From assembly GCA_029260575.1 (NCBI GenBank), contig JAJDDB010000009.1, forward strand, positions 62,001 to 126,000: 64,000 nt of DNA, written 5' to 3'. Shown here in pieces: positions 56,907-60,043 of the stretch. The position numbers and the translations under genes were made by a program. Below the pieces are notes generated by a model. That model ran no database searches. It saw nothing but the letters and a program-made list of their open reading frames with translations, and was not told the DNA's origin. The stretch's first letter is position 1, and each line of letters begins with the position of its first letter. This DNA is from Phycisphaerales bacterium. Lineage in GTDB: Bacteria; Planctomycetota; Phycisphaerae; Phycisphaerales; SM1A02.

Positions 56907-57025
56907 GGCCGTCTGGTCCTTTCGCAGTTGTGAAGTGAGGGAAGAACTCGATTGTAGACCCGCTATGGCGGTGCGGCTGACTGCTGGATATCTTGAGGGG
57001 CAGCACAACAAATGGAGCGATGCAA

Positions 57026-58159
57026 ATGCGAGCGGTGGTGACTGGACAAATCGGGATTGACAAGAAGCCGTACCTGAATGCCGTGGCTGAGCTTGCCGGC
57101 CAGCGGGGCGAACGGCTGGACGTCTTTCATGTCGGCAACATGATGTATGACGAGGCCACGGACATTCGCTCGGGTCGGATTCTCGACTTGCCGATCAGCC
57201 GGCTCAAATCGCTGCGCCGAGCTGCGTTCAAGGACATTATTTCGCAGACGCAGCCGACTGAAGCGCATCGCAATTTCATGGTGAACACCCATGCAACGTT
57301 TCGCTGGCGGCACGGCCTGTTCAGTGCGTTCGACTTTGATCAGATGAAACTGCTCCAGCCGGACATGTTCATATGCCTCGTCGACAATGTTGAGGTCGTG
57401 CATCAGCGCTTGCATGCGGAACACGACATCGATGCATCGTTGAAGGACTGCATGGTCTGGCGCGAGGAAGAGATTCTTGCGACTGAACTTATTTCAGAGG
57501 CAATGGGCTGTCACAATCAGTTCTATATCCTCAGTCGCGGCCGACATGTTGACACACTCGAAACGTGTCTGCGACTCGTGCTGCGTGAAGACATGCGCAA
57601 GGTGTATCCGAGTTTTCCGATGAGTCATGTCATGGACATGCCAGATGTTCTTGCGGAAATCGATGCATTCCGCGCCGAGCTGGCTGAGCACTTCATTACG
57701 TTCGATCCTGCGGATGTGGATGAGAAGCTACTTCTGGATCGCGGCATCGAAGCTGCCAAGCAGGGTAAAGATTGGCTTGATGTCGCACCGCATAACTTCG
57801 GCGGTCGATCCGAAGCCCCACCGCTTCGCGTTTCCGTCCGCGAGATTCTTGAAATCGCAGGCGATGTGGACGGCCAGATCTACATGCGCGATTTCAAACT
57901 GATCGATCAGTCCGACATGATCGTCAGCTACATCCCGGAACTGGCCGGCGGCATCCCGGGGCTCTCCAGCGGAGTTGAGCGCGAATTGCAACACGCATTC
58001 GAGCACACCAAGGAAGTCTACGTCGTATGGAAGCCGGCCAAAGCGCCGAGTCCATTCATTACTGAAACCGCGACAAAGATCTTTGCATCCGTCGAAGAGG
58101 CCCTTACACACTTTGAGGACAAGGGCATGTTTGCCCAGCAATCATTATTCGGTCACTAA
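57026..58159 (+). CDS. Archaeal-type adenylate kinase-like domain fused to a deoxyribosyltransferase-like domain
   Basis: A 377-residue protein. The N-terminal 190 residues follow the layout of archaeal AdkA: VVTGQIGIDKKP where the P loop should be, then VFHVGNMMYDEATDI, THATFRWRHGLFSAF and LQPDMFICLVDNVE. The P loop is GxxxxxKKP, so the usual Ser/Thr after Lys is lost and phosphoryl transfer is doubtful. The C-terminal 100 residues resemble nucleoside 2-deoxyribosyltransferase: LIDQSDMIVSYIPELAGG, then SSGVERELQHAFEHTKEVYVVW. I know of no assigned function. The ATG at 57026 follows GGAG. Confidence 0.65.
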   Translation: MRAVVTGQIGIDKKPYLNAVAELAGQRGERLDVFHVGNMMYDEATDIRSGRILDLPISRLKSLRRAAFKDIISQTQPTEAHRNFMVNTHATFRWRHGLFSAFDFDQMKLLQPDMFICLVDNVEVVHQRLHAEHDIDASLKDCMVWREEEILATELISEAMGCHNQFYILSRGRHVDTLETCLRLVLREDMRKVYPSFPMSHVMDMPDVLAEIDAFRAELAEHFITFDPADVDEKLLLDRGIEAAKQGKDWLDVAPHNFGGRSEAPPLRVSVREILEIAGDVDGQIYMRDFKLIDQSDMIVSYIPELAGGIPGLSSGVERELQHAFEHTKEVYVVWKPAKAPSPFITETATKIFASVEEALTHFEDKGMFAQQSLFGH

Positions 58160-58330: not shown

Positions 58331-60043
58331 ATGTGGAATGCAGTTCCGTTCAAATCAGCGTTTGAGTATCCACCTGCGTGGTTGTGCGGAGCTGTCATCG
58401 GCGGCGCGATCGTCTGGGCAGGCGCGCTTGCAATACCTGCGGTAATCGCTGCAGCAATAGTTGGCCTGCTCACGACCGCACTCATCGGCTGGGTTGTTGC
58501 TTCCGCAAATCATATCAATGAACTCAAAGACGAGTTGTGCACCATGCGCCGCCTCGAAGAGATGCTTCGAACAACACTTGATTCAGCAGCCGCTGTCACT
58601 TGGCGATGTGACGATGCCTTGCGCTGGCAATTCGTGAATTCGAATTGGTCGTGTATGACGGGTCAGCGCGAAGAAGATGCACTTGACCGCGGCTGGCGGC
58701 AGATGATCCACGCAGAAGATCTCTCGCAGTATGAGACGTCACTCAAGCTTGCGACTATGGAGCAGGCAGAGGGTGAGGTTGAATATCGAGTGCGTAGTGA
58801 TGATTGCGGCTGGCTGAACATATTTGAACGATTCGTGCCGCATCTCGACAATGATGGCGAATTTGCCGGCCTCATCGGCGTAGGCGTCGATTTCACGGCC
58901 CGCAAACGCCTTGAAGCAGATCAACGACAACAGATCGAAGATCAGCAGCGCGTGATTGCGGCGCTGAATCAGCGCAGCGATGGCCTTGCAGCTATGCATG
59001 CGCAGATGCAGCAGCGTCGCGATGAAGCTATCCAGCAGCAACAGAACGTCTGTGAGTATCTCGCAGCCCTCTCCGGCGATCTGCGTGAACCTGTCATGGA
59101 AATCCGCGATGCGGCTGGTTTGCTCAACCAGGCACAACTCGAAGAGCAACAGCGGATTGATGTTGTGCGTCTCAACAACGCAGCAGGACGTTTGGATACG
59201 ATTCTTGAACGCTCCATCGAATTGACCGCACTCGATGAGCAGGCAGCCGGCGGCATTGATATACAGGAATGCGATTTGCGTTCAATCATCGGGCAGGTGA
59301 CTGATCACCTCAGAGACGATGCCCGCGAACAGAATGTCAGCTTGTCTGCTGCGGTGCATGGCTCGGTGCCCGCATTGGTCAAAAGCGATCCCTATCGACT
59401 TCGTCGCGTGCTGCTCATGTTGTGGAGCGGCGCACTTGAAAATTCGCGCAAGGGTTCGCTTACACTCGATGTAACATGTGAAAGTAAGAGCGGCAGCACT
59501 GCACATCTACTGTTCTCGATCATGCTTCCGGCAAAAAGTCTGACGCAGGATTCGCTGGACCGCGCGTTCTATCCCGAACAGGCAATGGATTGTGAAGGCG
59601 GCGGCATGGGCCTGGGCAGATGTCAGCGCCTCGCAGAACATCTTGGCGGGCAGATTGGCATTGAGCGGGATGAGAATGGTGCTGCCAACTTCTGGTTCAA
59701 GCTGAACGTTCCGGCTGTGGATGCAAGCCTTGATGGGCGGCGCTCACACAACAGACTCGCACAGGAATCAATCCGAAGCAGCGTTGGCATGGTGCTCGAT
59801 CTGTCCAAAGGCGGTATGCGTGTGCAAAGCCGCAAACTGCCGGAAGAGGATGTCCTGGACGTCGAGTTGGCTGATGATGAAGACACGATGTTGCTGCGAG
59901 CTGCGATTGCATGGTCACGCAAGACCGGATTTCGTCGGTTCGAGATCGGCTTTAAATTTGTCGATCTCACGGGAGAACTCGAAGCACGTCTGACCAATCT
60001 CGCAACCCGCAATCGCGTCCGTCGAACCTTCGAAGCAGCGTAG
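58331..60043 (+). CDS. PAS - pseudo-histidine kinase - PilZ signalling protein
   Basis: A 570-residue protein. Two membrane helices occupy about residues 15-57, a PAS domain about 75-190 (WRCDDALRWQFVNSNWSCMTG), and a coiled coil follows. A HisKA-like helix around residue 248 reads SGDLREP, where a kinase has SHELRTP, so the phosphorylated His is missing. The ATPase-like domain keeps a G box (GGGMGLGRCQRLAEHLGG) but its N box is poor. A PilZ domain from about residue 468 (RRSHNR, DLSKGGMRV) ends it. It is likely a cyclic di-GMP-responsive membrane protein, not a kinase. ATG 58331 follows GAGGGG. Confidence 0.78.
   Translation: MWNAVPFKSAFEYPPAWLCGAVIGGAIVWAGALAIPAVIAAAIVGLLTTALIGWVVASANHINELKDELCTMRRLEEMLRTTLDSAAAVTWRCDDALRWQFVNSNWSCMTGQREEDALDRGWRQMIHAEDLSQYETSLKLATMEQAEGEVEYRVRSDDCGWLNIFERFVPHLDNDGEFAGLIGVGVDFTARKRLEADQRQQIEDQQRVIAALNQRSDGLAAMHAQMQQRRDEAIQQQQNVCEYLAALSGDLREPVMEIRDAAGLLNQAQLEEQQRIDVVRLNNAAGRLDTILERSIELTALDEQAAGGIDIQECDLRSIIGQVTDHLRDDAREQNVSLSAAVHGSVPALVKSDPYRLRRVLLMLWSGALENSRKGSLTLDVTCESKSGSTAHLLFSIMLPAKSLTQDSLDRAFYPEQAMDCEGGGMGLGRCQRLAEHLGGQIGIERDENGAANFWFKLNVPAVDASLDGRRSHNRLAQESIRSSVGMVLDLSKGGMRVQSRKLPEEDVLDVELADDEDTMLLRAAIAWSRKTGFRRFEIGFKFVDLTGELEARLTNLATRNRVRRTFEAA

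Follow-up and report, generated by a model that had tools for sequence, protein, structure and literature searches.

What can a histidine kinase do once its phospho-acceptor histidine is gone and a receptor domain for a second messenger is fused to its end? The question is raised by an open reading frame at positions 58331-60043 (plus strand) of the window, i.e. the whole 64,000-nucleotide stretch of Phycisphaerales DNA analysed here. The frame starts with ATG and is translated without internal stop into 570 amino acids, and a GAGGGG ends 9 nt 5' of the ATG. Shuffled sequences gave more promoter- and terminator-like sites than the actual one, and a PHROGs search returned three families, none with a named function. 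The original prediction saw here a PilZ-tailed pseudo-histidine kinase that may convert a PAS signal and cyclic di-GMP (c-di-GMP) into a response without autophosphorylation; such a conversion is plausible. Pseudo-histidine kinases are a known kind of protein, and those that we met in print are single cases. The variant with a PilZ domain is new: among the open-licence PMC papers searched, we recognised no account of a pseudo-histidine kinase fused to PilZ. The losses described below recur throughout a family of 19 proteins, 11 of which keep the c-di-GMP domain; this connects second-messenger with two-component signalling in a form open to test, in a lineage so far unstudied.

The predicted protein opens with a hydrophobic hairpin (aa 13-57, positions 58367-58501, plus strand as for all its features) which reads as two probable membrane helices with a helical linker behind; the AlphaFold2 model has helices at aa 16-30 and 32-85, with low to middling pLDDT. 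A PAS domain follows (aa 83-193, 58577-58909), recognised in the model and by Pfam (PAS_3 at aa 101-184, E 3.9e-11; PAS_4, E 2.5e-6). The pseudo-DHp (HisKA-like) helix pair occupies aa 232-306 (59024-59248; model helices 188-267 and 272-306), with a sub-threshold HisKA match at aa 243-303 (16.1 bits vs a cut-off of 26.9), and the pseudo-CA (HATPase_c-like) domain, also seen in the model, occupies aa 312-462 (59264-59716), with HATPase_c at aa 353-460 just above threshold (27.7 bits vs 26.4). The predicted C-terminal PilZ domain was confirmed at aa 466-569 (59726-60037) by Pfam (aa 486-557, 34.7 bits vs a curated cut-off of 22.5) and by a separate model of aa 466-570. The full-length model, built from a 32-row alignment, reached a mean pLDDT of 82.8 and a pTM of 0.42, with pLDDT below 50 at residues 1-15, 418-421, 467-478 (the RRxxxR linker) and 568-570. 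Foldseek matched it to PAS-linked kinases, GacS (7z8n), RetS (6dk7) and DivL (4q20); the isolated core aligned with RetS 6dk7 at a TM-score of 0.66 by target and an rmsd of 5.5, and matched DivL 4q20 as well. We regard the protein as probably membrane-anchored and dimeric.

Within this core, the H box at aa 248-254 (59072-59092) reads SGDLREP in place of SHELRTP, so that Gly249 stands where the phospho-His should be, just as had been predicted. The N box (aa 359-371), described as poor, is in fact lost: it reads MLWSGALEN, the Asn being replaced by Gly367. The decay is wider than the prediction had it, as the D box (aa 399-403), which it did not list, has also lost its Asp. The G box (aa 423-428, GGGMGLG) is intact. 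With a histidine kinase core fold and a replaced catalytic His, the window protein is by fold and sequence a pseudo-histidine kinase of the DivL kind.

We then asked how far these features extend beyond one protein. With profile A4 and 5 candidates scored per genome, at least 18 full homologues were found in 15 of 181 genomes and 9 of 45 genera of the same taxonomic family. These counts are lower bounds, since profile A1 had missed three type II members (L114-L116) that were found by the PilZ profile. A sample of 301 genomes of the order (A4, 3 candidates per genome) added one new member, L131 (L131:5221-8064, minus strand), from genome G843 of a sister family. In a sample of 298 genomes of the class (A1, 4 candidates per genome), the window's match was the only one among those listed to reach the PilZ end, and a scan of genome contigs gave one locus, its match confined to aa 243-460. 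The 19 members, all with intact open reading frames, comprise 11 type I proteins (G000, G020, G021, G036, G104, G105, G012, G023, G100, G101 and G102) and 8 type II proteins (second copies in G100-G102, the copy in G103, and those in G106, G003, G024 and G843), some carrier genomes thus having an additional, doubly decayed paralogue. These pseudo-histidine kinases thus form a family confined to one lineage.

The catalytic positions were compared with those of 54 distinct ordinary kinases caught by the same searches, a control set biased towards the profiles' nearest kinases. It was composed of 55 kinase rows from the searched loci (L020 left out) and three fetched sequences, from which four repeats were dropped. 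The His, both N-box Asn, the D-box Asp, both D-box Gly and the three G-box Gly columns were each canonical in 54/54 controls. By contrast, the DHp-CA alignment of the 18 proteins found in the window's own taxonomic family contained no His at the phospho-acceptor column, which was filled by Gln (4), Lys (4), Ser (3), Gly (2), Asp (2), Thr (2) and Arg (1). Both N-box Asn and the D-box Asp were likewise absent from all 18, the D-box Gly columns were kept in 1 and 0 members, and the G-box Gly columns in 5, 7 and 7. The original prediction had looked to orthologues with conserved PilZ residues for a general loss of the His, and this was found in 11/11 of them (Gly, Asp, Gln, Ser three times, Thr, Arg, Gln three times). 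The loss of the N and D boxes is a further argument against autophosphorylation. Judged by its sequence, the kinase part of the window protein is dead; the protein should neither autophosphorylate nor turn over ATP, and autokinase activity is almost certainly absent.

The member from the sister family refines this statement. In L131, alone among the 19, the phospho-acceptor position is a His (LAHAMRPQ), although canonical N, D and G boxes are missing and the PilZ motif is decayed; including this protein, the N-box Asn and the D-box Asp are missing from 19/19. Loss of the His is thus true for all members found in the window's family and not for every known member. In 9 of 19 members, an Asn directly precedes the place of the canonical second N-box Asn; it was discounted as a shifted N box, judged by the neighbouring AxKF anchor.

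Could the family consist of true histidine kinases which use a different phospho-acceptor? In favour, the position is filled by Ser, Thr, Asp, Lys, Gln, Arg or Gly, and in L131 by His. None of them is conserved, however, and the N and D boxes are gone. A nearby conserved His would have spoken against the pseudo-kinase reading, yet within 30 columns of the phospho-His position there was none: only 5 of 18 rows had any His there, three of these rows being near-identical. The best-filled His columns (10/18 and 9/18) were rejected as alternative acceptors, as both lie in the CA domain and not in the H box; they map to window residues 399, the place of the lost D-box Asp, and 390. We consider a different phospho-acceptor very improbable indeed.

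The kept G box raises another possibility, namely that the CA domain still senses ATP, so that the protein would report on nucleotide state as well as c-di-GMP. The G box stood as predicted in the window protein and failed as a family trait, being kept in 7 of 18 members (the window protein and six others). In favour of the possibility, HATPase_c exceeded its Pfam cut-off in exactly these seven among 18 of the 19 members (all but L091) scanned, and DivL, a pseudokinase, bound TNP-ATP weakly, at 57 uM, while showing no autokinase activity (PMC4211667). Against this, the N-box Asn and the D-box Asp are missing throughout and the G box is lost in the other 11 of 18, which makes ATP binding or sensing doubtful; we hold this reading to be improbable. 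HisKA also exceeded its cut-off in 7 of the same 18 scanned members, so that loss of the His by itself does not abolish a HisKA match. A PAS match in Pfam was present in 7/7 scanned type II members vs 3/11 of type I; with 8 of 11 type I proteins lacking it, PAS input is not common to type I.

A protein with a dead core may also be an evolutionary relic heading for loss, with no signalling role outside its PilZ domain. The kinase core does diverge fast, on long branches, and some carriers have the second, doubly decayed paralogue mentioned above. On the other hand, the frames are open in all 19 members, and dN/dS was below 1 in 40/40 values (ten close pairs in four regions, the DHp and CA included; range 0 to 0.64), although dS of merely 0.01-0.21 in these pairs makes single values rough. 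In genus g37, dN/dS was 0 to 0.07 for PilZ and 0.39 to 0.51 for CA. The gene is not decaying, and a relic has little to recommend it as an explanation. In a tree of the kinase core built on all columns, a single branch (SH-aLRT 100) split the 18 members from the 54 controls, with 1 label change. When the H, N, D and G box columns were dropped and all 54 controls kept, 2 changes were needed; leaving out also L004, L007 and L008, three long-branch own-genome controls, gave 1 change with a support of 98. These were quick trees with long branches, and L131 was in none of the kinase or PilZ trees. In the PilZ tree (40 domains), the fused rows did not form one clade: the fused label needs 4 changes and the starred branches force at least 2, with the standalone L006 and L120 placed among fused rows. 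Support in this tree is poor and the branch of L006 very long, so that one fusion event is, from the PilZ side, neither demonstrated nor excluded.

The PilZ domain is the best conserved part of the type I members. With one row taken from each of seven type I genera, pairwise identity averaged 48.3% in PilZ, 27.1% in DHp and 29.6% in CA, with 19 of 101, 3 of 79 and 6 of 154 positions invariant, respectively. Both binding motifs, RRxxxR (RRSHNR in the window protein, aa 470-475, 59738-59755) and [DN]xSxxG (DLSKGG, aa 490-495, 59798-59815), the latter in the form [DN]LSxGG, are kept in 11/11 type I members, the window's included. The spacer between them is 14 residues in the window protein. In the one canonical PilZ compared, a small standalone protein encoded elsewhere in the window at 1190-1570 on the minus strand (motif at 1403-1507), it is 24 residues. 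When modelled alone (aa 466-570), the PilZ domain had a pLDDT of 84.2, with the RxxxR loop below 50. The model aligned with YcgR in complex with c-di-GMP (5y6g; Z 11.4, rmsd 2.4, 94 residues) and with Alg44 (4rt1; Z 10.0, rmsd 2.5, 85 residues), although the best Foldseek E-value was only 2e-3. A phmmer search with the PilZ sequence alone gave no PDB chain, while the fold searches did give matches. The shared fold does not in itself show c-di-GMP binding, since 3dsg, titled as a trivial c-di-GMP binder, aligns too (Z 6.7). By motif and by modelled fold, the type I PilZ is canonical, and it quite probably binds c-di-GMP. At E <= 1e-10, a 12-row PilZ profile found matches in 22 of 392 genomes of a phylum sample (the window's included), all of the same order, and at E <= 1e-12 in 23 of the 181 genomes of the taxonomic family.

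Type II differs at precisely these motifs. ELG replaces [DN]xS in 8/8 proteins and [DN]xSxxG is found in none of them; RxxxR is complete in L114 alone, while the second Arg of the motif persists in 19/19 members. PilZ exceeded its Pfam cut-off in 11/11 type I and 2/7 scanned type II members. According to a review, c-di-GMP is not bound by PilZ of P. aeruginosa, in which key DxSxxG residues are missing (PMC12564702). With [DN]xSxxG lost in 8 of 19 members, c-di-GMP cannot be the family-wide input. In type II, ligand binding was probably lost after catalysis, and the passage from type I to type II would thus form a natural series in which first catalysis and then, probably, ligand binding went.

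How, then, would such a protein act? Nearest in their working are RetS and DivL. RetS is a hybrid kinase with a 7TM sensor, a histidine kinase core and two receivers; it keeps its own H-box His and is not known to have a PilZ domain. The window protein, with the order hairpin, PAS, kinase core and PilZ, is not its orthologue, even though searches with the isolated core, by fold as by sequence, place RetS among the best matches. DivL, too, is not known to have a PilZ domain, and YcgR, Alg44, MapZ and HapZ, which share the PilZ fold and the RxxxR and [DN]xSxxG motifs with the window protein, are not known to be fused to a kinase core. The RetS core of Pseudomonas aeruginosa (PDB 6dk7, 6dk8 and 7n0e) works by binding the DHp of another kinase, blocking GacS through a DHp-DHp heterodimer (PMC12148439). 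DivL of Caulobacter (PDB 4q20), which matched by fold, likewise combines PAS with a kinase core whose phospho-His is replaced, by Tyr550, and it senses DivK~P (PMC4211667). The position is one conserved Tyr there, whereas the window family has a variable residue and has lost the N and D boxes as well. A further precedent is an evolved pseudokinase form of ChrS, which pairs with HrrS (PMC9491836). In CckA and RavS c-di-GMP acts on the kinase core too; these are, however, active kinases, and the ligand binds mainly via PAS-B in CckA and requires Arg656 of the CA region in RavS, not a PilZ domain (PMC4853435 and PMC6707612). The PilZ protein HapZ works in trans with the histidine kinase SagS (PMC12564702).

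By analogy with RetS-GacS and DivL-DivK~P, we propose that the protein is a membrane-held, dimeric dead kinase whose conformation would be set by its PAS and PilZ inputs and read by a partner. PAS input and c-di-GMP would reshape the four-helix bundle, and the output would be contact with another protein: most likely, the dead DHp/CA would pair with an active histidine kinase or attach to a response regulator; c-di-GMP might in this way adjust a phosphorelay in which the protein itself takes no chemical part. The family most likely acts by protein contact, gated in type I by c-di-GMP, and a pseudo-histidine kinase working as a c-di-GMP-gated binding protein is the best explanation, to which we assign a probability of about 0.5. 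That the contact is made with a two-component partner is a tentative suggestion. More speculative still is the full picture of a new class of signalling protein, confined to this lineage: a c-di-GMP receptor on a histidine kinase chassis, whose dead kinase would heterodimerise with active kinases, so that c-di-GMP tunes phosphorelays with no phosphate being passed, type II having later lost ligand binding too and become a pure pseudo-receptor.

Among the scanned genes that each synteny group of type I loci has in common, neither a response regulator nor an active kinase was adjacent. Two genera do have an intact HAMP-HisKA-HATPase kinase at a distance of about 7 kb (L086:476-2086 and L087:248-1888, both on the minus strand); the two are 72% identical, have SHELRTP and the N, D and G boxes, and are candidate partners. 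Genomes G000, G020 and G021 share a neighbourhood of a VTT-domain protein, an AAA_17 protein, the pseudokinase, a gene which we take to be TruA-like, a glycosyltransferase, a PIG-L deacetylase, a GNAT protein and a dUTPase. The upstream neighbour in the window (57023-58159, plus strand; AAA_17 match) is 77-80% identical across three genera, far better conserved than the pseudokinase. The type I loci of g37, g13, g24 and g57 have a second common neighbourhood, with a pyridoxamine-phosphate oxidase and a large Met-zincin protein in 4/4, and further genes, UPF0047 and an H+-pyrophosphatase among them, in some.

The glycosyltransferase close downstream in the first group bears on the main rival, according to which the PilZ domain provides the output and the dead kinase serves merely as a dimeric stalk that transmits the signal: the bundle would set the PilZ, which, with or without c-di-GMP, would dock outside two-component signalling. 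YcgR and Alg44, which dock on targets such as a flagellar part or a glycan synthase, are precedents. The PilZ is indeed C-terminal and best conserved, DHp and CA have been free to diverge (27-30% identity), and HATPase_c falls under its Pfam cut-off in 11 of 18 members scanned. However, the glycosyltransferase is absent from the genes common to the other synteny group, and DHp-CA homology, with the few invariant scaffold residues A331, G375, G440 and W455, is traceable in every member found, though a plain coiled coil would serve a stalk as well. The results fit either reading; we rate this rival as somewhat less likely than a gated binding protein whose kinase core makes the contact.

A supply of the second messenger is at hand. 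Above the cut-offs, the window's genome gives 6 matches to GGDEF and 9 to PilZ, the pseudokinase PilZ included, and each of the 15/15 family carriers has 2 to 10 GGDEF matches at E <= 1e-20. Since 174 of 181 genomes of the taxonomic family have at least one GGDEF match, this supply is permissive and not discriminating.

Short-spacer PilZ domains also occur in other settings. In G009, a 448-codon frame (L120:1942-3285, minus strand) reads as a hydrophobic hairpin, a coiled coil and a short-spacer PilZ, with no evident HATPase core; it is possibly the same design minus the kinase core. Further carriers in the order (L124:2892-5000, plus strand; L127:2395-4374, minus strand; L123; L126) read as a PilZ N-terminal to a membrane GGDEF-EAL protein and as one C-terminal to a chemoreceptor-like protein, and two PilZ copies are found within one frame among them.
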